In this document: positions 6,625 to 60,036 of the stretch, one piece after another | Layout of the letters: each line of letters starts with the position of its first letter | How positions within the stretch are numbered: position 1 is the first letter of the stretch | Origin: Prevotella sp. | Lineage (GTDB): Bacteria > Bacteroidota > Bacteroidia > Bacteroidales > Bacteroidaceae | Reading direction: 5' to 3' | DNA: 64,000 nucleotides | NCBI GenBank assembly: GCA_017618275.1 | Contig: JAFZUS010000103.1 | Span: forward strand, 1 to 64,000 | The notes under the pieces: generated by a model | What the model saw: the letters and a program-made list of their open reading frames with translations, nothing else | Databases searched by the model: none | What the model was told of the DNA's origin: nothing | Translations under genes and position numbers: made by a program

Positions 6625-6661
6625 CAAAGTTAGTCAAAAGGGATTTTGAGGTCGTGACAAA
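6625..6661 (-). promoter_or_regulatory. Phage-type promoter P2 (TTTG-TCACG, N25, TAACTTTG)
   Basis: Read leftward, TTTG is followed directly by TCACGACC and, exactly 25 bases after TTTG, by TAACTTTG (6625-6632). It lies 22 bases before the start of the portal-like gene. Confidence 0.7.
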
Positions 6662-21247: not shown

Positions 21248-21266
21248 AATAGACAAAATTTAGGAA

Positions 21267-29422: not shown

Positions 29423-29449
29423 ATCTTTCCGTTTTAAAATTTCTGCAAG

Positions 29450-29486
29450 CAAAGTTAGCAAATGCCTTCTTCGACTACGTGACAAA
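29450..29486 (-). promoter_or_regulatory. Phage-type promoter P4 (TTTG-TCACG, N25, TAACTTTG)
   Basis: Read leftward, TTTG-TCACGTAG is followed exactly 25 bases after TTTG by TAACTTTG (29450-29457). It sits between the terminase stop and the appendage operon. Confidence 0.7.
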
Positions 29487-29510
29487 CTGATTATCGGGGT
29501 ACGGAAATAA

Positions 29511-32218: not shown

Positions 32219-32580
32219 TACGCAATACCTTTGGCAATATGCTTACGTTTGCGCTTATTATACTTATCCTTACCCGTGCGCATCAAGTACTCGCCATATT
32301 CCTTGGGCGACATGCCGTAGTTACCGGCGATACGCAGACCACCGCCACCAGGGATGGTAGGATTCTGAAGATATTGCTGCACCGTCTGACCAGGATTGGC
32401 ACGCTGTGCCTGCTGGCCCTGCTGATTGAGATAACGCTGCGGAGCCTGTTGTGTGACTTGCTGGCCTTTGACCTGCTGCATAGACTGTTCAGCCAACTGC
32501 TGACCTGATGGTGATGATACCAAACCCAAAGCACCGGCAGCCATAGCGCCGAGCACTGTCATAACTTTACTCTTCTTCAT
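32218..32580 (-). CDS. Small basic Gln-rich protein before the terminase
   Basis: A 120-residue protein. The start is set at 32580 (MKKSKVMTVLGAMAAGALGL), overlapping the end of the preceding gene by 14 bases. The N-terminus has a short hydrophobic segment (VLGAMAAGALGLV), then a Gln-rich linker (QQLAEQSMQQVKGQQVTQQ), and a basic C-terminus (RTGKDKYNKRKRKHIAKG) suited to nucleic acid binding. I do not recognise a family. It might aid packaging or capsid assembly. Confidence 0.7.
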   Translation of the reverse strand: MKKSKVMTVLGAMAAGALGLVSSPSGQQLAEQSMQQVKGQQVTQQAPQRYLNQQGQQAQRANPGQTVQQYLQNPTIPGGGGLRIAGNYGMSPKEYGEYLMRTGKDKYNKRKRKHIAKGIA

Positions 32581-33718
32581 TGTTCTTTGATTTTTTGTTA
32601 TTAATAGTATAATTTTCCGCATCCTTACGGGCTGCTTCCAAAACGGGATAGTAGTGCTTTGCCTCTTCCTCACCAGCCAGTTCCACCAGCTGCTGATAAC
32701 GCTCCTCCATCGTCTTTACACGGCGAGGGGTGTTGAGCTTATCCTTACGGGTGAGATACTTAATGAGGTCGGCGATTTCCTTCTTCTTCTTTTCCTCGGC
32801 CTCGCGGATCTTTGCCTGCTCAGGGTCGTTACGCTTGATGTCGTCGATGACCTGCTGTTTGATGGTAGCCTTCTGCTGGTCATCAAACTTATCCCAATAC
32901 ACGCGGAGCTTGGTGCGCCATTCCTGCGGGTCGGCCTTCGCTGCCTGGATCTTCGCGATATAGGTGGTATCTTCCTTCAGACGTACATAGACATGAGCCA
33001 GTTCGCTATCCACATGCTCGTAGATATTCTCGTACTGTTTCTTACACTCTATGGCCTGCTCTGCAAAAAATGCCACCTCAGACTCAGGCTTACCCTGCTC
33101 GGCCAATAATTTGGCAGATGTGGCATTCACACTCTCCTGATTACGCAAATCACGCACAGTCTCTACGGCCTCCTGAAGGGCAGGGGAGAGCAACCACTTG
33201 ATTTCATCCAGACGAAGCAGCGTGCCACCACCCATCGAGCCAGAGACCGATTCCGTGTCGGGTGTCTCTACAACGGGGATATCACTCTTCTTACCAAACA
33301 GCGTCTGTTCCTTTTCCTCCTGTTCCTGACGCTCCTTCTCGGCCTGCAACTGACGGGCAGCCTGTTCATCCTTCGTAGGACGGCCCACATGGGGAGTCAG
33401 AAGATTGGGGTCGTTAAGATCCACGGTTTTCATCATACCTATCATACCCTGTACCTCCGTGGCCACCTTATCGGCATAGCGACGGAGCAACTTACGACGG
33501 GCTCCATAATCCTTAAACCTGAGAGATTCCTGTACGAACGCACGGCAGTAGGCAAACGGCTCCATCATGTGAAGGCCACGCTCAAACTCCGCAAACAGTT
33601 CGCCGGTCACGCCCTTCTGCTCAATCTGCGGCAGAATGGCGGCATACCATTGCTGAAAGTCGGACAGCCAGGAAGTACGCTCCTGCTGCGACATCTGATT
33701 GAATAATTTTTGTTCCAT
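32567..33718 (-). CDS. Coiled-coil late protein at the head of the packaging operon
   Basis: A 383-residue, strongly helical and charged protein. Notable parts: FQQWYAAILPQIEQKG near 22-37; LRLDEIKWLLSPALQEAVE near the middle; very charged coiled coil near 300-345 (AEEKKKKEIADLIKYL). It starts just after promoter P5 and is followed by the small basic gene and terminase genes. No family recognised; scaffold-like or packaging-accessory roles are possible. Confidence 0.7.
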   Translation of the reverse strand: MEQKLFNQMSQQERTSWLSDFQQWYAAILPQIEQKGVTGELFAEFERGLHMMEPFAYCRAFVQESLRFKDYGARRKLLRRYADKVATEVQGMIGMMKTVDLNDPNLLTPHVGRPTKDEQAARQLQAEKERQEQEEKEQTLFGKKSDIPVVETPDTESVSGSMGGGTLLRLDEIKWLLSPALQEAVETVRDLRNQESVNATSAKLLAEQGKPESEVAFFAEQAIECKKQYENIYEHVDSELAHVYVRLKEDTTYIAKIQAAKADPQEWRTKLRVYWDKFDDQQKATIKQQVIDDIKRNDPEQAKIREAEEKKKKEIADLIKYLTRKDKLNTPRRVKTMEERYQQLVELAGEEEAKHYYPVLEAARKDAENYTINNKKSKNNEEE

Positions 33719-33757: not shown

Positions 33758-33794
33758 CAAAGGTAGGAAACCTATCGGGGAAGTACGTGACAAA
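33758..33794 (-). promoter_or_regulatory. Phage-type promoter P5 (TTTG-TCACG, N25, TACCTTTG)
   Basis: Read leftward, TTTG-TCACGTAC is followed exactly 25 bases after TTTG by TACCTTTG (33758-33765). It drives the packaging operon and begins immediately behind the terminator of the capsid operon. Confidence 0.7.
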
Positions 33795-35817: not shown

Positions 35818-36414
35818 TTAAACTTGGTGAGCCTTCTTCCATGCCTCACGAATCTCCTTATTCTCCTTTGGAGACTTAGAGTGGTCGTAGGCAGGCATAC
35901 CACCTTCCTCAGCAGCGGGAGCTTCTGCACCCTGGCCATTGTTGGCTGGAGAGCCACCCTTCTCAGCAGCGGGAGCGGCAGTCATAGCCTCGATCTGGCC
36001 CTTCTGGTCGGCGATAATCTGATTGGCTTCGTCGAGCTTTGCCTGGAGGTCTTTTGCTTCACCCTCGGCTTTCTCGCGTGCATCCTTCTCCGTCTGGAGA
36101 GCTTCAGTGTGCTCAGTGTTGAGCTTTTCGATGGCCTGGTTGTGCTCCTCATTGAGGTTAGCAATGGCCTGCTCATGAGCTTCGTTCAGTTCCTTCTCAC
36201 GGTTAGCGACAGCTTCCTCACGCTCAGTCTGGGCGTTGTCAACCTGTCCCTGAAGGGTCTGAATCTTTTCCTCAGCAGCAGCCTTTTCAGTGGCATGCTG
36301 TTCAAGAGTCTGGTCGAGTGCGTCGAGCATTTCGGGTACGAAATGTGCGCCTTCCTCGGTCTGTACCAGTTCCTCTACACCGCAAGCGGTGGCAATGTTC
36401 TTGTACTCTTTCAT
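35818..36414 (-). CDS. Nested scaffold protein (internal in-frame start)
   Basis: A 198-residue product in the same frame as the protease, beginning at the ATG at 36414 (MKEYKNIATACGVEEL). The bases just before (AACAATAACAACAGT-like, A-rich) resemble the leaders of other genes here, and the start lies exactly after the disordered linker. The rest is charged coiled coil with Ala/Glu repeats. Phages with fused protease-scaffold genes often make extra scaffold from such a start, as with lambda C and Nu3. This is predicted only. Confidence 0.5.
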   Translation of the reverse strand: MKEYKNIATACGVEELVQTEEGAHFVPEMLDALDQTLEQHATEKAAAEEKIQTLQGQVDNAQTEREEAVANREKELNEAHEQAIANLNEEHNQAIEKLNTEHTEALQTEKDAREKAEGEAKDLQAKLDEANQIIADQKGQIEAMTAAPAAEKGGSPANNGQGAEAPAAEEGGMPAYDHSKSPKENKEIREAWKKAHQV

Positions 36415-37431
36415 ACTGTTGTTATTATTTGGGGTTAAAGAATTAGCATTTGCGGCTGGTGCGGGGTCATCCTCTGGCACGTCATCCTCCGGAGCCACCG
36501 GCTTTACACGAGTGATAGGCTCGGCAGAACCGTTAGCCACCTCAAAGGCACGGGTAATCACCTCACCCAGCGTCTTTTGTCCGTCACACAGGATGCCAGT
36601 CACCTTATCAGCCTCGAACAGCTTACCATGGATGTGCTCTTCCTTAGCAGCAGGGAAGGCAGCCTGAATATCCTTACGGAACTGTACGCCATCCTCCTTC
36701 AACTCTTCGATGAGCACCTTATCATTCTTCGGGTCATCGGCGAGGTCACGATACCATTTGTTTTTGTCATAGGATTCAGGATCGTAGAGCTCATGGAAGG
36801 TCTCATTGGTGTACTTGTTTGTAGTACCATTCTTCTCGGTGTAGAACACAGCCATCACACCGATAGAGCCAAACAAATCTTTGGGGTGCATGTAGTACAC
36901 TTCATCACAGACAGAAGCGAGATACATAGCTGCTGATGCACAAAGGCCGTCAACGAAGGCATACACCTTCTGACCACGCTCATGCGCATACTCGATAGCC
37001 TGTTTGAAATCATTGATAGCCCAAGCGGAACCACCAGGAGAGTTGATGACAAAGACATGTGCCTTGCAGAACTCGTTATTAGCAGCCTCCATGAGCCAGT
37101 CGCGCAGATCCATAGAGCCATAAGAACAGGCACCACCTTCGCGAGTGATAGGGCCAGCCACCGGCATTACATTGACAAAAGGCGCATCCATGTCCTCCAT
37201 CCACCAGCGCGACTCTACCTTGCCTTGCTCCGTAACCTGATACTCCTTGATTTCAGGAGCGGCATCCTCGGCAGACTTGATGAGTTGCATGGCGTATGGC
37301 TTTTTCTTTTTGTCAAACTCCAAACCGATATGACCATTCAGGTTCTGTTCCCACATCGTGCGAGAACCATGAACATACTCAGGCATGATCATCCACTTCT
37401 TCGTTGACAATATTTCCAGTAATCCGTTCAT
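35818..37431 (-). CDS. S49-type head maturation protease fused to scaffold
   Basis: A 537-residue protein. Residues about 95-300 form an S49/ClpP-like peptidase: oxyanion region VINSPGGSAW (129-138), nucleophile S166 in DGLCASAAMYLAS (161-173) and the K184 region in HPKDLFGSIGVMAVF as likely general base. After a Pro/Glu/Asp linker (311-335), residues 340-537 are a long coiled coil, the usual scaffold of capsid assembly. The protease cuts the scaffold and capsid precursors during maturation. It is the first gene after promoter P6 and precedes the capsid gene, the HK97 order. An internal start at 36414 could produce scaffold alone. Confidence 0.88.
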   Translation of the reverse strand: MNGLLEILSTKKWMIMPEYVHGSRTMWEQNLNGHIGLEFDKKKKPYAMQLIKSAEDAAPEIKEYQVTEQGKVESRWWMEDMDAPFVNVMPVAGPITREGGACSYGSMDLRDWLMEAANNEFCKAHVFVINSPGGSAWAINDFKQAIEYAHERGQKVYAFVDGLCASAAMYLASVCDEVYYMHPKDLFGSIGVMAVFYTEKNGTTNKYTNETFHELYDPESYDKNKWYRDLADDPKNDKVLIEELKEDGVQFRKDIQAAFPAAKEEHIHGKLFEADKVTGILCDGQKTLGEVITRAFEVANGSAEPITRVKPVAPEDDVPEDDPAPAANANSLTPNNNNSMKEYKNIATACGVEELVQTEEGAHFVPEMLDALDQTLEQHATEKAAAEEKIQTLQGQVDNAQTEREEAVANREKELNEAHEQAIANLNEEHNQAIEKLNTEHTEALQTEKDAREKAEGEAKDLQAKLDEANQIIADQKGQIEAMTAAPAAEKGGSPANNGQGAEAPAAEEGGMPAYDHSKSPKENKEIREAWKKAHQV

Positions 37432-46098: not shown

Positions 46099-46992
46099 TT
46101 ATAGTAACGTCGAGCTTTCACCGCCATAGACCCGCATCTGGGGTAAAATGACATCGTGGATCTGCTGTGCAGCGATGTGCGCATTGGGGTGCGGTTTACC
46201 GGTTTCACCCGTCAGACGCAGACGCATGATATTGCGCCACTCAAACACGTTGTAAGTGTAAGCCACACGGGTAGCGGCATCGAGACAGAGGAACCCACGC
46301 GCATCCTGTGCGGGCAGTCCCAGACGGAGGCCCAGCATATAGCACCATTCCGACATCTTCCAACCGACACGCGCCAGCAGCTTCTTCGACCAGTGCGCAC
46401 ACTCATACCAATGCGGCAGACAGATGGTGATGCCACCACGCTTGCCAAAGTTGACATATCGTGTCGATTGCTCGGCGATATTGTTGGGCGAAGTGCGGTT
46501 CAGCTCTCTCGAAGTAGATATCTGTGTAGTCACACAGACGGTATAACGAATGAGTGCGAAGGCCGTCGGGAAATTCAACTCCTTAGCCTTGGCCACAAAG
46601 TCCTGGAGCGTCACCTCGTATGGTTTCAGTTCCTTGGCGATGGCCTTTGCATCCATCAGGAAATGACGGTTTGTAGAGACAAAGAAGGTACGCTCCTTTT
46701 TTCTTCTTATCCTTATGGTAGCGGATGCACACATAAGGGGTGTTATTGAGGGCCGTAATGAGCCACAAGGGAAACACGCTGTTGTCTGGTTCACCTTCAC
46801 AGCAAAGACGAAATAGGCGCTGCCATGTCGGAACATCGACAGGTGCTTACGCTTCAGCAACATGTCGCAGAAGTCCTCTGCGCTTTTCTGGCCACCCTCG
46901 GAGGCGTAGCACAGACGGGCAGCACGAGCCACCTGTTCCTGCCAAACCTCCGGAGAGGGCCAAAGTTCAACTGTAGGTTTTATTAATTGCAT
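46099..46992 (-). CDS. thyX: ThyX-like thymidylate synthase with a compensated double frameshift
   Basis: A 297-residue protein. FAD-dependent thymidylate synthase makes dTMP from dUMP using methylenetetrahydrofolate. Visible: N-terminal LIKPTVELWPSPEVWQEQVA with ARLCYASE; the signature region NRTSPNNIAEQSTRYVNF (divergent from R-H-R-x7-S, but S-x-R-Y intact); and a C-terminal GFLCLDAATRVAYTYNVFEW followed by NIMRLRL. Between about 46697 and 46780 the reading frame gives a Cys/Arg-rich stretch with no family character, whereas the neighbouring frame reads VFPLWLITALNNTPYVCIRY, which fits ThyX (L-x-x-N-x-P-Y). The sequence therefore holds one base missing near 46780 and one base extra in an A6 run (46697-46702). 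This is either a real paired mutation or assembly errors. Confidence 0.75.
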   Translation of the reverse strand: MQLIKPTVELWPSPEVWQEQVARAARLCYASEGGQKSAEDFCDMLLKRKHLSMFRHGSAYFVFAVKVNQTTACFPCGSLRPSITPLMCASATIRIRRKKERTFFVSTNRHFLMDAKAIAKELKPYEVTLQDFVAKAKELNFPTAFALIRYTVCVTTQISTSRELNRTSPNNIAEQSTRYVNFGKRGGITICLPHWYECAHWSKKLLARVGWKMSEWCYMLGLRLGLPAQDARGFLCLDAATRVAYTYNVFEWRNIMRLRLTGETGKPHPNAHIAAQQIHDVILPQMRVYGGESSTLL

Positions 46993-47008
46993 ATCAATCG
47001 TTGAAAAG

Positions 47009-48040
47009 TTAATATCCTCTGAGAGTTATTCCCGCATCCTTACAGCGGGCAAAGAAATACGCTATCGAGATCTTATCCGGACTGGAATTGTACTTGAACT
47101 TTTCTTCCACATCCTTTGCATTATACTTTGACACATTGATACGGCTCACGCGGTCAAAGAACTCGAATCCGTAGGGTGCCGGAAGGTTGGCCAACGACAG
47201 GCCCACACGAAACCACACATCGTAGTCATTCACGATGTCGGTATTGGTACGCTCCAGCAGCTCTACCATCCGGCGCACACGCTCAACCAACTGGTCGTCA
47301 CTCTCGCCACTGCTGCTATACACCGCTGCCTTCGGAGCCAACACCTGTTCGCTGGTCTCTAAGCACACACCGGCATAAGCCAGGGCATGTTCATTGATAT
47401 AGGGATCGGAGTCATACGAAGCAAAGCGTATGCGAGTCACGTCACCACACTTACGGTCTATCTGGATGCCCAGCGCCGAGTACTCGCGCAGCAGGGCCTT
47501 GAACTGTTCCTTATGGTATTGCGGATAGAGCAACGGAATGAGAGCGAAGTAGCCGGTACCGCTGCACGACTTCATCAGCAGCGCCACTTCAGGACGGTGG
47601 CGAAGGGTACGCAGAATGCTCTTCATATCGCCCAGGCTCTCGTTATCCTGATGATCGATGTCTATGCAGAGGAATCCCGTATGCTGTGCCAGATGCGACC
47701 CACGACGCGACACCATTTCCTTCACTATGAACTTCTCACCCGTCCGGCGGTTGGTCTTTTCCACCTCCACCTCTCGCGGCTCAAAGAGTCCGGAGAGCGT
47801 AGCGCCTGGAAGGAACTGCTTGGTCTCGCGGTATTCGTCAGATGCCTTCGCAGCCTTCTCGCCCATCGTCTCTACCATGCCACGCAACTTCTCAACCACA
47901 GGCTGCCAGCGATCCGTCATACAGAACTCGCGGATGGTCATCGACTGGATGATCTCACCCGTTTCCATATCTACGAAGCGCCCGACGTTATCCTTCGCGT
48001 CAGTATAGACAGAACACATGCGGTCGAAAATGGAGTCCAT
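47009..48040 (-). CDS. Primase (BT4734-like N-terminal domain plus PriCT-2)
   Basis: A 343-residue protein. Residues about 75-230 match the BT4734/BF3469-like prim-pol domain of Bacteroidetes elements: GFLCIDIDHQDN with the metal-binding Asp pair (D-x-D), KSCSGTGYFALIPL as the S-x-x-G nucleotide-binding loop, and IQIDRKCGDVTRIRFASYDSD. The C-terminal 80 residues (NDYDVWFRVGLSLANLPAPY; DKISIAYFFARCKDAG) match PriCT-2. Such proteins lay down RNA or DNA primers and often sit next to a helicase gene; here the helicase is 12 kb upstream. It is the second gene of the early block and starts 3 bases after the membrane protein. Confidence 0.87.
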   Translation of the reverse strand: MDSIFDRMCSVYTDAKDNVGRFVDMETGEIIQSMTIREFCMTDRWQPVVEKLRGMVETMGEKAAKASDEYRETKQFLPGATLSGLFEPREVEVEKTNRRTGEKFIVKEMVSRRGSHLAQHTGFLCIDIDHQDNESLGDMKSILRTLRHRPEVALLMKSCSGTGYFALIPLLYPQYHKEQFKALLREYSALGIQIDRKCGDVTRIRFASYDSDPYINEHALAYAGVCLETSEQVLAPKAAVYSSSGESDDQLVERVRRMVELLERTNTDIVNDYDVWFRVGLSLANLPAPYGFEFFDRVSRINVSKYNAKDVEEKFKYNSSPDKISIAYFFARCKDAGITLRGY

Positions 48041-48043: not shown

Positions 48044-48436
48044 CTATTTATTATTATAATAGTTGTAATAGTTATGCCACTTAGCCCAGGCCCATTCCAC
48101 CAGAATATTGATGAGCCATGCCAGACAGAAACCGAGACCCATCAGCCAGAAGCCACGCCAGAACCAATACGACATAACAAAACACAGGGTACCAAGAAAC
48201 AGGTGTACCAATGTCTCTACGGGGTAATCCTTATGGAAGTAGCCCTTGCGCCATTTCCAGTCTTTGTCTGGCGACTCATCCTTACTGTACTGATAGGATA
48301 TCAGACCTGCGGTAGCCATCGAACCAATGAACATGCCGACAGGTAACGTCCAACCACCACCGAGGATACCCAGCGCGATCACCGTCAACAGCGACATCAA
48401 CAATACCCAATTCAGGATAACGAGATAGATTTTCAT
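48044..48436 (-). CDS. Small membrane protein, first gene of the early block
   Basis: A 130-residue protein with about four membrane segments: 4-22, 25-44, 77-93 (LVHLFLGTLCFVMSYWF) and 97-115, and a Trp/Tyr/Asn-rich C-terminus. It starts 38 bases after the promoter at 48474-48504. Not recognised. As the first early gene it might act in host takeover or superinfection exclusion. Confidence 0.75.
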   Translation of the reverse strand: MKIYLVILNWVLLMSLLTVIALGILGGGWTLPVGMFIGSMATAGLISYQYSKDESPDKDWKWRKGYFHKDYPVETLVHLFLGTLCFVMSYWFWRGFWLMGLGFCLAWLINILVEWAWAKWHNYYNYYNNK

Positions 48437-48473
48437 AAGCGTTTCACCTTATATGATATTTGTTATTCGCGGA

Positions 48474-48504
48474 CAAAGTTAAACATAATATTTGAATAGA
48501 CAAA
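48474..48504 (-). promoter_or_regulatory. Host-type early promoter (TTTG, N19, TAACTTTG)
   Basis: Read leftward, TTTG (48501-48504) and TAACTTTG (48474-48481) are separated by 19 bases, a textbook Bacteroidetes promoter. There is no TCACR motif. It drives the 48.4-37.6 kb operon and should be active with host RNA polymerase alone. Confidence 0.82.
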
Positions 48505-49128
48505 ATAAAAATCTATTTAATTTCTTATATCGTGTAAGTTTTAACATTTGAACACAATCGGAGCCACCAAATAATCCGTTTTCGAGGTCGAGGAAATTTT
48601 CTCCCTGACCAGGGATATTTTCTCCTTTTAAACCTCAAAACTACTTTTTGCAGCCCGAATCCCCAATTTCTGTAAAGTCAAAAACGGGGAAAAAAGTTAT
48701 CGAAAGTTCTGAAAAGATTTCAAAAGGAGATTTTGAAATCGCTTTAACTCGCTGAAAATCAGACATAAACATTGGTAAAAAGTTATTTTTTCCTTTTTTC
48801 TAAAAAACTTAGTACACACGGGAAGAAAAATAGAAAACGGAATTTATGACAAAAATTCCATGAAAACCGCTCGCTTTATGCCACCTCCCCTCGCCCCCAA
48901 GTATCTGATAATCAAAGGAGAAAGTGGAACTTTCGCTTTGTTGCTCAATTTCTTTTAGGGTACGGGATTTCTATCTCTATCAGAGAGAAATTTTTTCTCA
49001 AAATATATATGAGGTATGCGAAAAACCATCATTTTCTCCTTTTGGCCCTCTGGAAATGCCCAGGAATGCCCTAAATAGAGGGAAAGGAGAAAAATATTAA
49101 TTCATCCTTGAAATTTCCTTGAATATCT
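48505..49128. promoter_or_regulatory. Non-coding control region with repeated AAAGGAGA octamers
   Basis: No gene is visible. AAAGGAGA or its complement TCTCCTTT occurs five times in 470 bases (48621-48628, 48723-48730, 48914-48921, 49035-49042, 49083-49090). AT-rich blocks lie between them, along with a perfect inverted repeat at 48716-48740. The layout suits a replication origin or a regulatory hub; which one cannot be decided from sequence. Confidence 0.55.
48716..48740. repeat. Perfect 10-bp inverted repeat
   Basis: GATTTCAAAA-GGAGA-TTTTGAAATC: a 10-bp perfect stem with a 5-base loop that overlaps one of the AAAGGAGA octamers. There is no gene end nearby on either strand that would need a terminator, so an operator or origin element is more likely. 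Confidence 0.7.
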
Positions 49129-49160
49129 TTTGGTAGTTTCAGGGATTTTTCGTACCTTTG
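49129..49160 (+). promoter_or_regulatory. Host-type rightward promoter (TTTG, N20, TACCTTTG)
   Basis: TTTG at 49129-49132 and TACCTTTG at 49153-49160 are separated by 20 bases, a near-ideal Bacteroidetes promoter pointing right. No rightward protein gene follows, which argues for a non-coding transcript. Confidence 0.7.
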
Positions 49161-49166
49161 TACCCA

Positions 49167-49370
49167 GTATTAAATTGGGGTATTATGCCCTAATTACATT
49201 AGTTCAGAGAGGTGGCGGTGCCACCATTTTGATTACTACCGTAGGTGCGGAGTAAGATTACTACCGTAGGTGCGGGAAAGCGCGAGATTTAGATTACCTT
49301 GGTGGCGGGAAAGCCGCGAGAGGGATATATGATAAGCGAGGGCCACGTCTCACGACGTAGGCCCTCGAAC
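49167..49370 (+). ncRNA. Candidate structured plus-strand RNA
   Basis: Downstream of the rightward promoter lie several strong stems but no open frame of note: GGTGGC-GGT-GCCACC (49213-49227), small GC stems with GGAAA-type loops within the direct repeats, and a 13-bp hairpin with one bulged base (CGAGGGCC-ACGTC with GACGT-A-GGCCCTCG, 49337-49367). The leftward ketosynthase gene ends at 49499, so the transcript would be convergent and possibly antisense to its 3' end. An RNA of about 200 bases is inferred; the 3' end is uncertain as no T-run follows. Confidence 0.4.
49233..49310. repeat. Direct repeats GATTACTACCGTAGGTGCGG
   Basis: Two perfect 20-base copies (49233-49252 and 49258-49277) are followed by a degenerate third (GATTACCTTGGTGGCGG, 49294-49310). 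The second and third copies are followed by GAAAG(C)CGCGAGA-like tails. The spacing of about 25 and 36 bases suggests protein-binding sites (iterons) or repeated RNA hairpins. Confidence 0.75.
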
Positions 49371-49498
49371 GATTACTATACATAAACAGATGTATGTAAT
49401 ACAAGATTTTACTAATACTTAACCTAAAACTAATCTACTAACTACTAACTAAAAAATTCAAATATCATAATGAAGAATGCCCATCCGCTGATGGTGCA

Positions 49499-50743
49499 TT
49501 AAGGTTTAGAGATAATGATAGAACTGTTGGTTCCACCGAATCCGAAGGCGTTGCACAGCACATAGTCAATGTTGGTCACGGTCGGCTTGGTAGGAATATT
49601 CAGACGTGCGGCTGCTGGTTCCGGCTGTTCCAGATTGATATGCGGAGCCACAAAACCACCCTGCATCTGAATAAGTGCATAGACCACCTGTGATACACCC
49701 GACATCCAGCACTCATGGCCTGTCAAACACTTCGTAGAGACCACGAAGGGATTGCCGATAGGTTTCCCTACCCCACATGTATATTTCGGCAGCCAGAGCG
49801 ACAACGACAGCAGCGCATCGGCTTCAGCATGGTCGCCATCCTGTGTAGAGGTGGCATGTGACATAATCATCGATAACTGCTCCGGATTGATGTCGGCATC
49901 CTGAATGGCGTTGCTCATGCAGCGAAAGATACTCTCTGCTGAAGGCGTAACAATGTCAGGCGACGTACAGAAGCCATAACCGCGAACCGTGGCCATGGGT
50001 TTACGATTACCCATAGCGGCATGCTCGGCGCTCTCCAGGATAACACAGGCAGCGCCACCGCTCGGCACCAGACCATCGCGGGCTGCATCGAATGGACGGC
50101 TTGCATTCTCAGGATCATCGGCACGCTGTGAGAAGATACCAAGCGCATCAAACGACGTATAAGCATGCAGCCCTACCTCCTGAGCACCCACCACGATACA
50201 CGCATCCACCTGTCCGCTACGGATGAGCGACAGCGCCAGTCCGACGGCATGACCACCACCGGCACAAGCGGCAGAGACCGTCAGCGAGATACCACCGATG
50301 CCGAAGACAGAGGCCAGCGCCATTGACACCGTTGAGTTCAGCGAACGGAACACCGCGCCAGCACCCAGACGGCGCGAGTCGTGATGCAAGCGCATGATAT
50401 CCTCCACCTCTGCCAGTTCACAGGCCGTCGAATCGTTGCTGACTATCAGCCCTACCCGATGGCGGTCAGTGATGGGCGCTTGCTCCAGGGCCTGTTTCAC
50501 GGCCATATACGCATAGCGGCCTGCCTCCGACAGACACATACGCTGCGAACGGCGCAAGCCTTCATGCGACAGATCCGGCACAGGCACGATACCCGTCAAT
50601 GGCGACTGGTAGCCGTACTCCGTGCGTCGTGGGTCAGCACCGATACCAGAACGTCCCAGGCGTAGCGACTGCTCCACAGCCTTCACATCCTCGCCGATAC
50701 AGCTCCAGATGCCCATGCCGGTGATGACTACTCTCTGTTGCAT
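49499..50743 (-). CDS. Beta-ketoacyl-ACP synthase (KAS I/II, aryl-polyene-type)
   Basis: A 414-residue condensing enzyme. KAS enzymes extend an acyl chain held on Cys by two carbons from malonyl-ACP. The catalytic triad is complete: C160 in SAACAGGGHAVG, H296 in MSHATSTQDGD, H343 in TKCLTGHE, with K338; the final NAFGFGGTN loop (398-406) is present. The opening VVITGMGIWSCIGEDVKAVE and the LTGIVPVPDL region resemble the KAS of Bacteroidales aryl polyene or dialkylresorcinol clusters rather than housekeeping FabF (by eye). The start overlaps the ACP gene by 16 bases, so the two are coupled, and both follow the tape measure gene. There is no acyltransferase, reductase or dehydratase nearby, so it must use host partners. 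Confidence 0.93.
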   Translation of the reverse strand: MQQRVVITGMGIWSCIGEDVKAVEQSLRLGRSGIGADPRRTEYGYQSPLTGIVPVPDLSHEGLRRSQRMCLSEAGRYAYMAVKQALEQAPITDRHRVGLIVSNDSTACELAEVEDIMRLHHDSRRLGAGAVFRSLNSTVSMALASVFGIGGISLTVSAACAGGGHAVGLALSLIRSGQVDACIVVGAQEVGLHAYTSFDALGIFSQRADDPENASRPFDAARDGLVPSGGAACVILESAEHAAMGNRKPMATVRGYGFCTSPDIVTPSAESIFRCMSNAIQDADINPEQLSMIMSHATSTQDGDHAEADALLSLSLWLPKYTCGVGKPIGNPFVVSTKCLTGHECWMSGVSQVVYALIQMQGGFVAPHINLEQPEPAAARLNIPTKPTVTNIDYVLCNAFGFGGTNSSIIISKP

Positions 50744-50991
50744 GCGTCAGGGTTTAAGGTGATGACAGCCTGCACCAGGTCTCTCAGGGTGCGGGTATTC
50801 TTGGCATTGTTCATGTCGAGCTTCACGCCAAACTGTGTTTCCACAGCCAGGATGAAGTCAAGAGTGTCGAGAGAGTCGAGATTCAAATCCTCCTGCAAGC
50901 GCGTATCGAGGGTTATCTCCTCCTGGGGAGGCATCGTGTCGAATAGTTTGATTAGCAGATCGACAATGTAAGGGAAAAGTTTTTCTTCCAT
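50728..50991 (-). CDS. Acyl carrier protein
   Basis: An 87-residue acidic ACP. The phosphopantetheine attachment site is S40 in EDLNLDSLDTLDFILAV, the classic D-S-L motif, and a recognition helix with acidic residues follows. The size and four-helix pattern are normal. It starts 32 bases after the tape measure stop and overlaps the ketosynthase start, so the pair is translated from the late tail message. Host holo-ACP synthase would have to activate it. Confidence 0.95.
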   Translation of the reverse strand: MEEKLFPYIVDLLIKLFDTMPPQEEITLDTRLQEDLNLDSLDTLDFILAVETQFGVKLDMNNAKNTRTLRDLVQAVITLNPDACNRE

Positions 50992-51022: not shown

Positions 51023-54000
51023 TTACTTTTTCTTATTCCACAAACGGGAGCCAGAGTAGCGACCCATAAACTGAGCACCGTCCTCGGCTTCCTCGGCAAT
51101 ACCGCCACGTCCGTACTTATTCACATGCAAGCCATTCTTCTGCAACAGCAACATCATAGCCGTAAACTCAGTGATGGCTCCGCGCAACTGCTGCACATCC
51201 TCCTGGGAGAGCGAGGGAGCGGCGGCGGCATCAGTACCGGCCATGCCCTCAGCAAAGTCGGCGAGGTTGCCCTCATCATACATTCGATAGTGCATACCTG
51301 AGCGGTTCTTATCGAACTTCACGATCTCGTTCATCAGGTCGGGTCTGTTCATCATCATCGCCTGAGTGGTCTCACGTCCGATGACCATTTCAGGGCCTTT
51401 TTCACCCACGACGGCGGGCTGTCCGTTTACCATGGTCGATATAGGCTTAGTCAACAGACCCGTCGAGAGTTTATCCACATGCTGCGTCTGATACACGTTA
51501 CCATCGTTACCTACCACCGTCTGCGTCTGTCCCTGCTGACCGCCATTCTGACCGCCACCAAACGACTGTACGTTACCGCTGTCATAGGTCAACATACCCG
51601 TCGCGAGTTTCACGTTCTGACCGGATGCTTCAGCACCACTATCGCTACCACCAAGGGCAGCAGAGATAGCCCACGAGAGCAATCCCATCAGCAAGGCACT
51701 GATGACGGCAATCAGAGGAATACCCCAGAAACCGAGAGTACCAATGATCTTAGCGGCACCACCGGCGATACCGAGGCTCACCTTACCCGTCGTAGCAGCT
51801 GCTTCCTCCGAGAGTTCAGTAGCGTTGGCCGTCTGATGTTGTGCCAGTCGGGTAGCATCGCTCGTAGCCTGTACCGTCTGCATAATCGTGGCGAAAGCCT
51901 GCTGGATTTGCAGCATGGTAGCCTGGTGCTGGGTCTCATCGGCTTCCTCCTGACGATAGTACAACTGGCGCTTCACACGGCGGGTCAAGTCCTCGGCAAT
52001 CATCTGAATGGTCATCTTCGCGTAGGCTTTCAGCATATCCTTCGCAAGGTCACGCAGTTTGATGTTCGAGTCCTCAGTCTCGGCAATCATGTTACCCAAC
52101 TTCTCGCCTACCCCTTCGGCAAAGGTAGCCAACGGCTCAGAGAATGACTGCAACAGTCCGATGCGCTCCTGGAACTTCGCGGCCACCTTATCAGCCATCG
52201 CATTCTGAGCGTCCATCATCTGACGTTTAGCCTCCGTCAGCTGCTGCTCTGATATCTTATCCTGCTGACGCAGGCGATCCATTTCCTCATAGTAGAGTTT
52301 CGCACGCTCTGCCAACAGACGATAGCGCATCACCTCTGGGTCACTCTCCATATTCCATGTGAGGCCCATCTGCTGTGCCACGCTCTTATCCGTCTCAAAT
52401 CGCTGCACATAACTGCTCTCATCAGAGAGTGTCGTTGTGGTCTGGTCGATTTGCTGCACATCGGAGCGGTTATTAAATACGAAGTCGGCACGGCGCTTTG
52501 CTTCGTCGTAGGCTTTCTTTTGAGCATCGGTATAGGCATCCGACATTTCAATGAGCTTCTGATAGAACACCTGCCACTGCTGCAAGTCCATATTCAGGAT
52601 GCCAGCCAACCACGAGCCACCAACATTTTTCTCATAGTCTGGGCCAAAGAGCAATGTAAGCATAGCCTTCTGACCTTCCTCGGTCGAAACATCGGTAGCA
52701 AACACATCAACGATATGCTCACGGGCATTCAAGAATGCCTCCTGCCACATCTTACTACGCTCGGCCACGGCAGTCTGAATATCAGCCTTATTGCCATTCT
52801 TCGAGAACTGCATCAAGTTCTGCGTCTGTCCGGCAGTCAGTTCAGCCAATCCCAGCTGCTCCATCTGACCCTCATAGTCCTTATTCACCTTGCCGGTATA
52901 GTTCTTTTCCAGCAAGAGTTTCTGGCGCTCCTGATAGGCTTGGTTTTCCTTCTTCGCATTCTGGAGTTCATTCTCGGTAGCCTTACGCCATATCTGATCG
53001 AGCAACACCGAACCGTTCTGGCCCAACTCCTTCGAGAGGGTCGTAATCATTTCCTTCAGTTTGTCGATGTCGTTATGGATTATATCATCCAGCAGCTGTG
53101 TGCTCTGGTTGGTACCATCATCGCCCAACGGCTCGTAGAGATCCTGAATCATCGTCTCACGGAATTGCTGCCACTCGTTTTCAGTACCGGCAATAGCCTG
53201 ACGCACATTAGCCAGGGCCGAGTTCATGCGGATGGTCATGCCGTCCACAAGTTTCTTCTGCAACTGCGGATCCATACCACCCTCAGTAGCCATTTCCGTA
53301 ATAGCGGTGATTTGGCGCTCATAGTAATTCTTTACATTATCTATAATCGCCTTGGCCTTACCCTGTTCCTCCTTCATTTCAGCACGAAGGGCCTTGCGAC
53401 GCTCTGCCTCTTCACGCTTACGACGGGCTGCCTCTTCCTTATCAGGTGCCTCATTGTCAAGTGTACCAGGTGACTCATCAACAGCATTGGCAATATCCTC
53501 TTGGAATGGTTCCCACTTTTTATTGACCTTATCGAGAGCATTGGCAGTAGAATAAACCTGTGCGGCATAGCGGGTAGCAGCATAGAGCATCTTTTCCTGC
53601 TGTGTCAACTGACGGGTATTGTTCCTTACAGCACCAGCATCCGGCTCCATACCGAAACCTATCTGTGATTGGGCCGTCTTAGCATCGAAATAGGTCGTGG
53701 GCGATTTCTGGCTACGCTTGTTATACGCATCCTGGGCAATCGTACTATTGACACCAAGTTTCTTGGCGAGTTCGCGATTGATTTCCTCTACAGACTTACC
53801 AGCCTCGCGCATATCATCGACATACGCTTTCAGCCATGTACCATTGTAAGCCGTACCACCTGCCTGCTGGTCGTATTCAGTCAGTCGGTCGGCCTGCCAA
53901 CCGATACGCGGTGCCACCTGCTTCTCAATGTCCTTTTCCTTCATCTGGAGGGCGATCTTCGCACGCATCTGCTTCACTACCTCCTTATAGGCGTTGGCCA

Positions 54001-56776
54001 CATCTTCGGCTGTCGATTTTTCAGTCAACATCTTCGAGAGATACTGACCATATTCCTTATTGAAGTTACGAATGGCAGCATGACGCTGACGGGTGCCCTC
54101 CCCTGCTTCATCAATGGCTTTCCTGAAGCGGTCGAGACGGGCATTGGCAATGGCAGACTCGCGATTGAAGTCCGACATCGTAGTATTGAAGCCCTCCATC
54201 CACTTCGTAGCCTTCTGTGTCTTACCGATAACATCGGCAATGACCATGGCCAGGGAGGTAAGCAAGGTGATTACAACACCGATAACATTAGCCTTCTGTG
54301 CCACATTCAGGGCCTTCCATGCAGCTGCGAGTCCATTGGTGCGAAGTGTGGCAATTACAGCGTTCTGTCCCATTAGACCTATCGAACTTGCCACACCCGT
54401 AATAGCTGCTGCAACACCCTTGAACATCAGACCGGCGAGGATGGCAGGCAGCATGTAGAGCAATATCTTCAGTTCGCCGATTATCAGGGCCAACACACCC
54501 TTCATCACGCCCATGGTAACGACATTGTTCGTCATCGTCTGGCTCAGGTCATACCATGCCTTTGCCAGCTGCTTCACGCTGTCAACACCATCAGGATTGA
54601 CGAATGCCTTTTCCCAGATGTTACCTGCACGCTCCATGAGAGCGTTTGCCGTTTCCTGCTGGATAGCGTACTCTTTAGAAACAGCCGTAGCCTCCTGGAA
54701 GGCTTCTTCTGAGGTTGCCAGGTGCTCCTTCAGCATATCCACATTCTTCGACATCGTGACCATCACGTTCACCAGTCGGGCACCCTCAGAACCGAGATCC
54801 TTGAACACGCTTTGCAGGGCATTCATATTACCCTTCTCACGCATCTTCTCAAATACCAATACCATCGCATCCACAATCTTACCGGCAGAATACAGACGGT
54901 TGATGGTACCAGGTTCAATGCTCAATTCCTTCTCAATCAGGTTGTGCTTTGTCTGGAGGCTTGTGATGAACTTGTTGAATGCCGTAGAAGCCACTTCAGG
55001 CATCAAAAACATCGAGTCAGCTGCGGATCCCAAACCTAAGAGCTGGTCAGTTGTGATACCTGCTGTGCGGGCCATACCGGTGAGTCGTTTCGAAAACTCA
55101 ACGATATTGCCAGCGGTGGCGGTAGAGGTAGCAGCCAACTGGAACATGGCAGAACCAGTGGCCAACATCGATTGCTCCACACCCATCTTAGGTATTAGAC
55201 CCATCACCTCGGTAATCTTCGAGAGAGCTGTCAGTGCATCAGCTCCCAGATCTTCTTTCAGGGCTACGTTTACCTGGTTGGCAGCACGAGTGAAACCTTC
55301 AAGTCCCTCGATACCATATTTTGCCATACCGAGTTTTGCACCGGCATAGGCGATTTGGTTCAATTCCTGAATGGTGGTGCGCGTATCAAGTTTTGCCAAA
55401 CGGACAGCCAACTCATCAATAGACTTCATGGCTAATCCTGACACCTTACGAATGTCTGCCAACTGGTCACTGAAGGCGAAATTATCCTTAAACACCTTCG
55501 TCACCTTACGGATGGCGATAGAAAACATCTGGAAGGCACCAAAGTAGGCGGTCATATTCTTCAGCGTCGTACCCCAAGCGGATGACTGTTGCTGTACGGC
55601 ACCCGTCGTTTTGTTAATCTCAGCACGAAGAGCGGCCAACTGCTTCTGCTTGCTGGTAAACTCACCCGTGCGACGGGTCATGGTAGCAATCTCCTGCTCC
55701 AACTGTTTAGCAGCCTGCTTCAATTTCTCCAAGGGTGTGGTTTTTAGGTTGGCCATAACCTTGTTGATATCGATAGCTTTCTTATCCACGTTGGAGAGAG
55801 CCGTTTCCAGTTGCTTGGCCCACTGTACCCATGCCTTACGACGAGGATCGCCCGTACCCATCTTATCCAACTGAGCACGACAGGCTTCCAAGCCCTTACG
55901 CAGTTGCTCCGGAGTGGCGGCATTCAGATTCTTTGTAAGAGCATTCACACTCTTAGCCACCTCCTTCGTTGTGGGAATGGCTTCTTTCTCCTTACCGGCT
56001 ATCTTATCCAGTTCTAACTCCGTCTGCTTCAACAGCGCATTGATCTGTTCAATCTCTTTTTTCTTAGCCTCTGTAGTAGGACTGATAGTGTCACGCTTGG
56101 CCAACAGAGCACTACGGGCATCACGCAGTTGGGCAGCACTTGCACCACCGGCAGTCATCGTCTGTACGGCGGTGGCATAGTTAGCATTGATGGTATTCAT
56201 CGACTTTGCAGCCGTGCGTTTTGCCTCTTCTGCCTCCAACTTTTTCAGTATGCCCATCTGCACCTGGTACTCATGGTTTTGTTTGTCGATCGAGGCGATA
56301 TGCGTCTTTTGCTGACTGATGGCTTTGGAAAGCCATGAGTCAGTGCGCGACGACAAATCATTGATATGCTTACCGATATTGACGTATGTACCCTCCAGCA
56401 CCTTTATCTGGTCGTTGATGGCCTTATACTTCTGACGCAGGGAGTCCAGACGCTTCGAGTTCTCGCTGGTCGAGCTCATTTCCTTCTTCACCTGAGCCAG
56501 GGCCAACTTCAACTGACGCAATGACGAATCAGCAAGGTTCTGTGTCACCTTGCTTACCTTGGTCATATCTGCCTCGGTATTCTTGATGGCTGCTCGCAGA
56601 TCTTTGATGTCCTGGAGCATATTCTTTGCCTTGGCGGTTCCAGCCTTACCAGCGTTATTCAGTTGCTCGTAAGACTTCGTGAGCTTATCCAACTCCACTT
56701 TCATGGCCCTTACAGCAGCCTTCGGTTGGGCGCTGTTACAGGTAATGACGATCTCAGCTTTCTTATTCGATGGCAT
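51023..56776 (-). CDS. Tail tape measure protein
   Basis: A 1917-residue protein. It sets tail length and helps DNA pass into the cell. The first 430 residues are coiled coil (LRQLKLALAQVKKEMSSTSE; QLEQEIATMTRRTGEFTSKQ). Residues about 440-690 match the TP901-type tape-measure core (FSDQLADIRKVSGLAMKSID; LTGMARTAGITTDQLLGLGS). Hydrophobic segments lie near 755-860 and 1660-1705. The C-terminal 200 residues are Gly/Gln-rich and end with the usual VNGQPAVVGEKGPEMVIG motif. At about 0.15 nm per residue the tail would be roughly 290 nm, so a long-tailed siphovirus is expected. It has its own promoter (P7) and is separated from most other tail genes by 20 kb. Confidence 0.93.
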   Translation of the reverse strand: MPSNKKAEIVITCNSAQPKAAVRAMKVELDKLTKSYEQLNNAGKAGTAKAKNMLQDIKDLRAAIKNTEADMTKVSKVTQNLADSSLRQLKLALAQVKKEMSSTSENSKRLDSLRQKYKAINDQIKVLEGTYVNIGKHINDLSSRTDSWLSKAISQQKTHIASIDKQNHEYQVQMGILKKLEAEEAKRTAAKSMNTINANYATAVQTMTAGGASAAQLRDARSALLAKRDTISPTTEAKKKEIEQINALLKQTELELDKIAGKEKEAIPTTKEVAKSVNALTKNLNAATPEQLRKGLEACRAQLDKMGTGDPRRKAWVQWAKQLETALSNVDKKAIDINKVMANLKTTPLEKLKQAAKQLEQEIATMTRRTGEFTSKQKQLAALRAEINKTTGAVQQQSSAWGTTLKNMTAYFGAFQMFSIAIRKVTKVFKDNFAFSDQLADIRKVSGLAMKSIDELAVRLAKLDTRTTIQELNQIAYAGAKLGMAKYGIEGLEGFTRAANQVNVALKEDLGADALTALSKITEVMGLIPKMGVEQSMLATGSAMFQLAATSTATAGNIVEFSKRLTGMARTAGITTDQLLGLGSAADSMFLMPEVASTAFNKFITSLQTKHNLIEKELSIEPGTINRLYSAGKIVDAMVLVFEKMREKGNMNALQSVFKDLGSEGARLVNVMVTMSKNVDMLKEHLATSEEAFQEATAVSKEYAIQQETANALMERAGNIWEKAFVNPDGVDSVKQLAKAWYDLSQTMTNNVVTMGVMKGVLALIIGELKILLYMLPAILAGLMFKGVAAAITGVASSIGLMGQNAVIATLRTNGLAAAWKALNVAQKANVIGVVITLLTSLAMVIADVIGKTQKATKWMEGFNTTMSDFNRESAIANARLDRFRKAIDEAGEGTRQRHAAIRNFNKEYGQYLSKMLTEKSTAEDVANAYKEVVKQMRAKIALQMKEKDIEKQVAPRIGWQADRLTEYDQQAGGTAYNGTWLKAYVDDMREAGKSVEEINRELAKKLGVNSTIAQDAYNKRSQKSPTTYFDAKTAQSQIGFGMEPDAGAVRNNTRQLTQQEKMLYAATRYAAQVYSTANALDKVNKKWEPFQEDIANAVDESPGTLDNEAPDKEEAARRKREEAERRKALRAEMKEEQGKAKAIIDNVKNYYERQITAITEMATEGGMDPQLQKKLVDGMTIRMNSALANVRQAIAGTENEWQQFRETMIQDLYEPLGDDGTNQSTQLLDDIIHNDIDKLKEMITTLSKELGQNGSVLLDQIWRKATENELQNAKKENQAYQERQKLLLEKNYTGKVNKDYEGQMEQLGLAELTAGQTQNLMQFSKNGNKADIQTAVAERSKMWQEAFLNAREHIVDVFATDVSTEEGQKAMLTLLFGPDYEKNVGGSWLAGILNMDLQQWQVFYQKLIEMSDAYTDAQKKAYDEAKRRADFVFNNRSDVQQIDQTTTTLSDESSYVQRFETDKSVAQQMGLTWNMESDPEVMRYRLLAERAKLYYEEMDRLRQQDKISEQQLTEAKRQMMDAQNAMADKVAAKFQERIGLLQSFSEPLATFAEGVGEKLGNMIAETEDSNIKLRDLAKDMLKAYAKMTIQMIAEDLTRRVKRQLYYRQEEADETQHQATMLQIQQAFATIMQTVQATSDATRLAQHQTANATELSEEAAATTGKVSLGIAGGAAKIIGTLGFWGIPLIAVISALLMGLLSWAISAALGGSDSGAEASGQNVKLATGMLTYDSGNVQSFGGGQNGGQQGQTQTVVGNDGNVYQTQHVDKLSTGLLTKPISTMVNGQPAVVGEKGPEMVIGRETTQAMMMNRPDLMNEIVKFDKNRSGMHYRMYDEGNLADFAEGMAGTDAAAAPSLSQEDVQQLRGAITEFTAMMLLLQKNGLHVNKYGRGGIAEEAEDGAQFMGRYSGSRLWNKKK

Positions 56777-56806: not shown

Positions 56807-56843
56807 CAAAATTACGAAATCCGGAGGCTGACCTTGTGACAAA
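56807..56843 (-). promoter_or_regulatory. Phage-type promoter P7 (TTTG-TCACA, N25, TAATTTTG)
   Basis: Read leftward, TTTG-TCACAAGG is followed exactly 25 bases after TTTG by TAATTTTG (56807-56814), 30 bases before the tape measure start. It should also drive the ACP and ketosynthase genes. Confidence 0.7.
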
Positions 56844-56948: not shown

Positions 56949-57515
56949 TTATTTCACGTTATCGATAGCCAGTTTCACATCATCCCAGGCAGCCATGACA
57001 AAGTTCTCGGTGTCGGGATTATATTCACCCACGTAGGTAATGGCAGCTTTTGCGTCACCCTCGGCATGGTCGTTGATGACGAAAAACTCGAAGGGTTCAA
57101 TCTTCGGCGGCTGCACAGCGTCGGACTCTATCTGTTCACGCACGGCGCGACGGATGCGATCCAGTTCGCCAGGGTTCACCTTCACGCCCTGCTCAATCCT
57201 TGCATTCACGGCCTTGCGCTGTTCATCACGCACATGTTTATCCCACGCTTCGGCCATCAGCTTATTCATCAGATAGAGGTAGGTGTTATTCAGGAAACGT
57301 TGCCAGTGGTCGGCACCACGTCCCAGCATGACAATGGCCAACGGCTCGGCCACGTACAGACGGCGCTCCTGCTGGTTCCATGCCAACAGGCCCTTCGTCA
57401 TCAGTGTTTCCAGCGAACCGAAAACCGATGCCGTCTGATGCAGATCTTTCAGGTCAGCCTTACGCTTCCTGTGTTCCCTCCACGCTTTCAGCGGGTTCTT
57501 CAGTCGTATCTTCAT
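56949..57515 (-). CDS. Second tail-chaperone-position protein
   Basis: A 188-residue protein. The frame is open to 57614, but the first good Met is at 57515 (MKIRLKNPLKAWREHRKRKA), still inside the preceding gene (56-base overlap). The body is helical (ETLMTKGLLAWNQQERRLYV; WQRFLNNTYLYLMNKLMAEA) with a beta C-terminus (FEFFVINDHAEGDAKAAITY). Two overlapping genes just before the tape measure are the standard place of tail assembly chaperones (G and GT of lambda). The frame relation to the upstream gene is +1, and the open overlap would allow a ribosomal frameshift, but no clear slippery site is evident. Confidence 0.7.
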   Translation of the reverse strand: MKIRLKNPLKAWREHRKRKADLKDLHQTASVFGSLETLMTKGLLAWNQQERRLYVAEPLAIVMLGRGADHWQRFLNNTYLYLMNKLMAEAWDKHVRDEQRKAVNARIEQGVKVNPGELDRIRRAVREQIESDAVQPPKIEPFEFFVINDHAEGDAKAAITYVGEYNPDTENFVMAAWDDVKLAIDNVK

Positions 57516-58122
57516 GCTCAACGGGTTTTTCGTTATTATCTTCGGGCTGTTCGGCAACGGCCTCCGATGGCTTCTCATCCGTTTCCTCGGTGGCTTCCTT
57601 GCCCTTCTTTCCACCTTTTCGACCTGCCAGACGGAACAGCGACCATGCCGACGATACCAGCATGTCGATGCGCTCCTGGTCGGTGCCTACATAGGTAGTA
57701 TAATGATATTGTCCTGGTGTGACCACACTCAGTAAGGCACCCTGCACGATGACAGTTGCTTTCTCGCCCTCTATCACCAGCAGCGACTCCACCACCGAGT
57801 CATGGTGTCTCGCGGTCAGCGGGAAGTCCATGCCCAACTGTGAGCGCATCAAGGCCGTCTGGTCGTCTTTAGTCAGGATGGCCACCTCTTTCAGCCACTC
57901 GCGCTGGCGATACCAGAGCAACAGTCTTAGCATCGGAATATCTATCGTCGGGATGACGATCTTCACGGTCAGAGAGTTGCCTGCCAGACAACTGATGGCT
58001 TTCATCAGTTTATCGAAGGTCACATCACCATTCGACTGCCACGTAGCAAGCGGGTACTTTTTCAGCAGCTGCGGCAACTGGTGCCCTATGCAGCACGGCT
58101 CCATAATTGAGAAAGTTTCCAT
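57460..58122 (-). CDS. First tail-chaperone-position protein
   Basis: A 220-residue protein. Residues 1-165 form a mixed domain (QLPQLLKKYPLATWQSNGDV; IPMLRLLLWYRQREWLKEVA; YTTYVGTDQERIDMLVSSAW). The last 55 residues are a disordered Glu/Pro/Thr-rich tail starting with a Lys/Gly-rich stretch (GRKGGKKGKEATEE). It is the first gene after promoter P8 and overlaps the next gene. Function as a chaperone is inferred from position only. Confidence 0.7.
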   Translation of the reverse strand: METFSIMEPCCIGHQLPQLLKKYPLATWQSNGDVTFDKLMKAISCLAGNSLTVKIVIPTIDIPMLRLLLWYRQREWLKEVAILTKDDQTALMRSQLGMDFPLTARHHDSVVESLLVIEGEKATVIVQGALLSVVTPGQYHYTTYVGTDQERIDMLVSSAWSLFRLAGRKGGKKGKEATEETDEKPSEAVAEQPEDNNEKPVEHEDTTEEPAESVEGTQEA

Positions 58123-58153: not shown

Positions 58154-58190
58154 CAAAGTTAGGGGTAAAACAACGTAACCATGTGACAAA
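58154..58190 (-). promoter_or_regulatory. Phage-type promoter P8 (TTTG-TCACA, N25, TAACTTTG)
   Basis: Read leftward, TTTG-TCACATGG is followed exactly 25 bases after TTTG by TAACTTTG (58154-58161). The first 9 bases after TTTG are nearly the same as in P1 on the other strand. It lies 32 bases before the first tail-block gene. Confidence 0.7.
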
Positions 58191-58887: not shown

Positions 58888-60036
58888 CTAATTCAACTGC
58901 ATGGGCATGGTGAGCTCAGTAAGTACGGAATTGTCGGCATCCTCTTTGAACAGGATGGGCTTCGAGTTAGAAGTGAGTTCCAGGCGCACATTGTCGGTAC
59001 TGATGTTACCTAACAATTCGATGATATGCGCACACTTACAACCGATATTGAAGCCGTCGGGGATATTCATGGCATCCTCCACCTCGGCGAGTACCAGGTT
59101 CTCGTTGGCAGCCTTAGAAAAATCGTTATCCTCGGCAGAGAGATTCAGGAACATGCCTTCCTTAGTCAGTCGTACCATATTCGACGACTCCGAGGCCATC
59201 AGCGACACACGACGGGCAGCACCTATCAGGTTCGAAACGGGCAGGATAGCATGATAGGGACATTCCGACGGGATAACTGAATTGTAGTTGGGATATTTAC
59301 CTTCGATATCGCGGATGGTAAAGGCGATGTCACCAGACTCTATACACATGTGCTTACCATCGTGGGTCACAGTAACGGTTTCCAGACCGGCGAACGGTGC
59401 GGAGAGGGTGCCGATGAGCGAGTTGTGTATCAGGATGACACGCTTCTCACCCGTCAGGAACGGAAGGCCATGCTGGTAGGCATACTTATAGAGTTTATGA
59501 CCATTGGTAGCCACGAAGATAACACCCTCATCCTGCACGTCGAGACATACGGCACTGAATACGGGACGCAAAGGATCGTCGGGCGTACAGCACGAAGTGG
59601 CAGCCTTCATCGCGGGGAACAGGATTTTTGTCTCTATCTCGAAACTGGTGGTCGGGGTGGTCATCTTTGCCACAGCGGGATATTCATCGGCACGCTCTAC
59701 GGGAACGCTCACCATACCAGTGGAATACTTGAACTTCGCCACCAATGCCTGCATATCCACATCGATCTCCACAGGCTGCTCAGGCAGTGAGCCCAACAGT
59801 CCGATGATATCATTACACTGGAGGCAGAACTTCTCAAAGTCCGTCTCGCTGTCGAGCGTCAGATTGATAGGCATGCACAACGAGTTTTCCTGTGATGAAC
59901 CAGTGATAAAGAATTTACCATCACGCTCAGTAAAGAGGTGGTCGAGCAATATCGGCAGCGAACACTTCTTCTGCATCACGGCTCCAGTGGCCTTCAGCAC
60001 ACGGAGCAATTCTTTTGCGGAAACATTAAACTTCAT
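58888..60036 (-). CDS. dnaN: DNA polymerase III beta subunit-like sliding clamp
   Basis: A 382-residue ring-forming clamp that tethers the replicative polymerase to DNA. The start MKFNVSAKELLRVLKATGAV and the spread of three similar domains (residues about 1-125, 130-255, 256-382) fit DnaN. Known family strands are visible, for example HLFTERDGKFFITGS and a C-terminal PILFKEDADNSVLTEL with TMPMQL, which matches the usual end (V-x-P-M-R/Q-L). Phage-encoded DnaN usually redirects host polymerase to phage DNA. It lies between the SSB-like gene (20-base gap) and the HNH gene. Confidence 0.9.
   Translation of the reverse strand: MKFNVSAKELLRVLKATGAVMQKKCSLPILLDHLFTERDGKFFITGSSQENSLCMPINLTLDSETDFEKFCLQCNDIIGLLGSLPEQPVEIDVDMQALVAKFKYSTGMVSVPVERADEYPAVAKMTTPTTSFEIETKILFPAMKAATSCCTPDDPLRPVFSAVCLDVQDEGVIFVATNGHKLYKYAYQHGLPFLTGEKRVILIHNSLIGTLSAPFAGLETVTVTHDGKHMCIESGDIAFTIRDIEGKYPNYNSVIPSECPYHAILPVSNLIGAARRVSLMASESSNMVRLTKEGMFLNLSAEDNDFSKAANENLVLAEVEDAMNIPDGFNIGCKCAHIIELLGNISTDNVRLELTSNSKPILFKEDADNSVLTELTMPMQLN

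Follow-up and report, generated by a model that had tools for sequence, protein, structure and literature searches.

A candidate auxiliary gene pair encoding an acyl carrier protein and a FabB-like ketosynthase in one phage lineage

The window, meaning the whole 64-kb stretch of DNA analyzed here, covers the opening 64 kb of a phage contig of 100,592 bases in a Prevotella sp. assembly of 3.6 Mb and 213 contigs. Its minus strand carries genes for a tape measure protein (TMP; 51023..56776, 1917 aa, PhageMin_Tail match at 7.2e-09), an acyl carrier protein (ACP; 50728..50991, 87 aa) and a ketosynthase (KS; 49499..50743, 414 aa). The ACP and KS frames lie where the earlier note placed them, on one strand and overlapping (by 16 bp), and the gap between TMP and ACP measures 31 bases rather than the 32 given there. 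TMP-ACP-KS is flanked by a clamp-like gene (58888-60036) on one side and a primase/ThyX-like group (46099-48040) on the other; KS is separated from the membrane-protein/primase group by roughly 1 kb (48437..49498) that contains no convincing gene and aligns with contigs that lack the pair. That note had the pair inside a tail operon, which is loosely worded, since other recognizable virion genes are far away: portal-like (4771-6627, minus strand, start taken as 6603), tail protein (20150-21256) and head protease (35818-37431).

Pfam searches of 98 proteins of the contig recognized a holin, an amidase, a dUTPase, a ligase, ParA and a 119-aa GNAT, among others, and Rfam at gathering scores gave zero matches in the window. 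The start and end of the contig have 102 exact bases in common, within a repetitive stretch, which suggests a complete or circular phage genome. A reverse transcriptase that matches PHROG 1423 (22507-23886) is possibly a diversity-generating element, and one of the proteins in alignment A8 (from 39-64 kb of the window or from L009) has a Tad2-like (Thoeris anti-defense) domain.

A phage-type promoter, TTTGTCAC-N21-TAATTTTG, is predicted 30 nt before TMP (56807..56843, minus strand). It is one of five exact window sites of the form TTTGTCAC-N21-TAnnTTTG, the others, also on the minus strand, being located before the portal-like gene (6625..6661) and before three genes of unknown function (58154..58190 before 57460-58122; 33758..33794 before 32567-33718; 29450..29486 before 28799-29641, taking an internal start). 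With up to two mismatches allowed, there are 8 window sites versus 0.47 expected, a count reached by 0 of 100 shuffles. A slightly looser form has zero exact matches in the remaining 36.6 kb of the contig and also matches in three bacterial loci. The 25-base spacing of this class exceeds the 18-21 used in the search for host-like promoters. Judged from the genes downstream, the class presumably comprises late promoters. A second promoter-like site, TTTG-N19-TAACTTTG (48474..48504, minus strand), before 48044-48436 and the primase group, is weak, its count of 2 being reached by 8 of 100 shuffles.

No promoter was found in the 31-base gap between TMP and ACP, and no strong hairpin or stop within the unit before 49338. 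A stem-loop of 13 pairs follows 132 nt past KS (49338..49366, minus strand); it lacks a T run and drew no call from the terminator scan. In three contigs without the pair (L235, L236 and L242), TMP is followed at 65-86 nt by a hairpin whose loop is the same and whose arms are altered yet paired, the folding z-scores of the three hairpins folded being -4.8, -6.5 and -6.0; other hairpins occur in L094, L007 and L095. In the window the sequence reads as one unit, from promoter through TMP, ACP and KS to hairpin, in agreement with the previous proposal that the TMP promoter serves the pair. The pair is not a moron in the strict sense of having its own promoter and terminator, the hairpin being found also in contigs without the pair.

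The KS has both ketosynthase domains (PF00109, 3.6e-32; PF02801, 1.9e-17) and the Cys-His-His plus Lys set of the KAS I/II superfamily (C160, H296, H343 and K338). Its top PDB and NCBIfam match is FabB (beta-ketoacyl-ACP synthase I), with which it has these catalytic residues in common, but it is only about 30-36% identical and scores 275.4 bits against the FabB equivalog NF005935, below the curated cut-off of 630 bits. The ACP has its attachment site S40 and is an acyl carrier protein by PF00550 (5.9e-10; 39.7 bits versus a cut-off of 20.8). Its top NCBIfam match is the ApeF/PRK05350 type (NF003757), where it reaches 54.4 bits versus a cut-off of 65, and it is 25-34% identical to the ACPs of bacterial clusters. 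All four KS residues and S40, intact in the window as had been read from it, are unchanged in nine of nine aligned phage pairs (which include L092 and L093, near-copies of each other), so that active-site mutations, which the earlier note had considered might be usual in related phages, are not the pattern. Nei-Gojobori dN/dS for KS is 0.055-0.058 versus L003-L005, 0.169 between L092 and L093, and 0.11-0.17 in divergent pairs with dS above 1.5 (the divergent dS values are all above 1.2, and one pair is saturated); for ACP it is 0-0.09 in close pairs, which have few changes, and 0.18-0.34 in divergent pairs. Both genes are intact and under purifying selection.

An IMG/VR scan with the KS gave six loci, and a second scan, run with an alignment, retained 80 relatives out of 120. 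Among the matches listed, 13 viral contigs other than that of the window carry KS with an adjoining ACP, all of one lineage of large phages of gut-type bacteria (L003-L008 and L092-L098); L008 ends at a contig edge, L097 and L098 have the same sequence for both proteins and are not independent, and L007 and contig 204 of Prevotella sp. MGM1 are one and the same DNA. The pair directly follows TMP in the window, L003-L005, L092 and L093, so that the TMP-ACP-KS order recurs in other phages, and one or two genes intervene in L094 and L007. In L006/L008 and L096-L098 its neighbors are other genes of the virion region, and in the latter three contigs the gene order is reversed, KS before ACP (the L096 KS being read from 9998, with its start codon unconfirmed); in L095 a clamp-like gene is close by. 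A short G-rich repeat array precedes the ACP gene of L095 (8900-9700). Among phage records, 28 had a KS match; the best, at 46%, comes from a fecal fragment that has no annotation and is probably bacterial, since a FabG-like frame adjoins its KS.

Promoter-class sites are found directly upstream of TMP in L004, L005, L007, L235 and L236, and upstream of a gene group that runs into the pair in L006, L008, L092 and L093. The L094 site has two mismatches and is at chance level, no site was found before the pair in L095, and in L096-L098 an exact or near site is downstream of the pair, with another about 10 kb upstream.

Further loci of the lineage were collected by alignment of the primase (15) and the portal-like protein (42), and 29 of about 50 contigs, mostly the longer ones, were searched whole. 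Some of these 29 records are fragments; KS is present in 11 and absent from 18, ACP is present in 15, every KS-bearing record has an adjacent ACP (11/11), and four records have ACP only. In G003, G009 and G010, a homolog of the gene at 48044 comes after TMP with roughly 1 kb of DNA and no pair between them, i.e. an empty site. The ACP-KS pair is thus optional in the lineage, because 18 of 29 records have no KS and empty sites exist. As metabolic genes carried by phages, with empty sites in L235, L236 and L242, the pair qualifies as an auxiliary or moron cassette in the broad sense. Stand-alone ACP genes were seen in G013, G015, G020 and G024 and a second ACP in G008 (L237-L241); that of G013 is located where L096-L098 carry KS-ACP. 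The portal-like protein, which had no plasmid match, was found in two genomes among 393 from the order and in five among 399 from the MGM1 family, starting genomes included; four new portal-bearing genomes (G657, G551, G735 and G500) gave only weak, FabF-level KS matches.

The KS phylogeny that the earlier note had proposed was built twice, with 10 of 14 phage, 40 of 80 bacterial and 9 of 52 secondary KS sequences in the first tree and 39 rows in the second. In both, the ten phage KSs group as a single clade (99; 100/99.8), and together with the KSs of Bacteroidota aryl-polyene/flexirubin (ApeR-type) clusters, 45-50% identical in the best genome matches, they form a group supported at 100/100. 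FabB branches next, followed by the long-branched ApeR of Moellerella, with ApeO-type and FabF-type sequences elsewhere. In these trees the phage clade is sister to the FabB-like KS of the Bacteroidota aryl-polyene-type clusters. Recent pick-up from a sampled bacterium is not supported, the phage KSs being one clade outside the sampled bacterial ones; an origin from the stem of the bacterial group or from an unsampled branch is conceivable, because that group alone is supported at only 86/77.

The bacterial relatives are embedded in clusters: of 79 loci counted (one of 80 was too short), 63 have an aromatic lyase homolog, 69 FabG just upstream of KS, 77 an ACP anywhere, 74 an acyltransferase and 51 an ACP directly after KS. 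The last arrangement resembles the phage pair, but the order is ACP-KS in most phages, and the pair is no aryl-polyene cluster, having no ammonia lyase, reductase, dehydratase, acyltransferase, thioesterase or second KS/chain length factor (CLF) with it. Phage and bacterial KSs agree at 23 positions where two FabB rows (a thin control) differ, whereas nine invariant positions are phage-only. According to the available text of PMC8358021, the FabB-like ApeR is homodimeric and functions without a CLF partner of its own. Its aryl-stacking Tyr135, in the numbering of that source, aligns by hand with V131 of the phage KS, so aryl substrates are not specially indicated.

The pair is best read as long resident in phages, comprising a FabB-like KS, ApeR-type by kinship, and an ACP of its own. 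The favored interpretation, to which we assign a probability of roughly 0.4, is an auxiliary two-gene phage cassette by which chains are extended on the phage's own carrier, with the help of host enzymes and probably at a late stage. The inferred product, timing and benefit are as follows. A host phosphopantetheinyl transferase (PPTase) would activate the phage ACP, host FabD would load malonate, the phage KS would join malonate to an acyl or aryl starter made by the host, and host reductase and dehydratase would complete the cycle. The chain would finish up in a lipid of the envelope or something related, probably at a late stage of infection, as placement in a unit with TMP suggests, and might benefit some phages in some hosts by membrane or surface remodeling, lysis or exclusion of other phages. 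Counted in favor of the cassette are its recurrence, the constant company of KS and ACP, the invariant sites, the low dN/dS, the single clade, the promoter, the lack of a strong hairpin or stop inside the unit, and the ability of ApeR to work without a CLF partner. Counted against it are the 18 of 29 records without KS, the four with ACP only, the lack of a late-type promoter directly before the pair in L095 and L096-L098, the chance-level site of L094, the hairpin without a T run, the unreached FabB and PRK05350 cut-offs, and the high dS. It is a doubtful further step that a KS branch of the phages' own with a dedicated carrier specifies a lipid or polyketide made late that changes envelope, virion or competition between phages. 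The interest of the pair lies in its phage-only KS clade, invariant active sites, repeated placements and natural comparisons; because phages with and without it exist, its effect on lipids and infection is directly testable.

Neither acyltransferase, ketoreductase, dehydratase and thioesterase, whose absence nearby had been pointed out before, nor PPTase was recognized anywhere on the contig (98 proteins by Pfam and 7 more). The ACP and KS might instead sequester or deplete the malonyl-ACP and acyl-ACP pools of the host, so that its fatty acid synthesis would be slowed or redirected with no product at all, and two proteins with no recognized downstream enzymes, like the ACP alone of four lineage records, would fit such interference. 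It is nevertheless unlikely, since a sponge would not need all four KS catalytic residues and the ACP serine, which are kept.

Boosting or diversion of host aryl-polyene or flexirubin synthesis is distinctly unlikely, although the nearest bacterial KSs sit in clusters of this type (79 loci), with the 23 common residues missing from the FabB rows. The window assembly and Prevotella sp. MGM1 have, besides the phage KS, only a FabF-like KS of 30% identity and none of the aryl-polyene type, which argues against a pigment role on the basis of two phage-holding assemblies, the bin membership of the window contig being putative. Among genomes of the same genus, G357 has an aryl-polyene-type KS and G418 does not, and a KS at E up to 1e-80 was found in 36 of 149 genomes of the order, own genome included. 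The earlier suggestion that the pair feeds from host aryl-polyene synthesis is accordingly not supported by the two assemblies, an objection that G357 weakens.

The lineage may persist in plasmid-like form, with a ParA-like gene (contig 86048-86914; L010:2048-2914) in 16 of 17 handles, made up of 15 of 16 viral records together with the assembly of Prevotella sp. MGM1, in which one of those records is found; this is the partition gene expected of a phage-plasmid. That the pair serves the lysogen or carrier cell during such persistence has a small chance of being correct, the plasmid state being putative and the window pair lying behind the promoter class of TMP and the portal-like gene.

The chance is smaller still that the pair produces acyl-ACP as the donor with which TMP or some other protein of the virion is modified. 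Its position next to TMP and in the TMP unit in the window, L003-L005 and L092-L093 would suit virion acylation, but it is not adjacent to TMP in L006/L008, L095 and L096-L098, members of the lineage without the pair still have TMP, and no acyl-ACP protein acyltransferase was recognized. The only transferase found, the 119-aa GNAT (contig 80515-80874), is about 30 kb from the pair and is a conceivable partner because GNAT folds include acyl-ACP users. A product needed for the virion, as the earlier note had envisaged, is unsupported as a general rule, given the 18 of 29 records, some of them fragments, without KS. Assembly insertion of host DNA, which that note had named as a possible undoing and which a 213-contig bin with 4.9% contamination might invite, can be dismissed, the same order being present in independent viral contigs and the MGM1 contig having the same sequence as L007.

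Phage genes of fatty acid synthesis have mostly been reported singly, as host-like genes of unclear origin. The earlier statement that no phage system of this type is described was too strong, in that acpP, fabF and fabG are known from predicted prophages and viromes in the available texts of PMC8224337, PMC10653327 and PMC12783922. The auxiliary cassette favored here resembles the acpP-fabF-fabG of predicted Rhodobacteraceae prophages (PMC8224337, available text) in bringing ACP and KS genes together in phage sequence, but those have the order fabG-acpP-fabF of a bacterial fab operon, whereas the KS described here belongs to a phage-only clade and lies among phage genes. The literature search found no report of this phage ACP-KS pair, which is not proof of absence.

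A second, unrelated phage KS family was seen in marine-type viral contigs (L146, L155 and L160; a group of 45-342 kb), where KS is clustered with an AMP-binding ligase and a Trp-halogenase-like protein, with desaturase-like proteins in L146 and L160 (Pfam: L155, L146); this cluster looks like a phage biosynthetic cluster.
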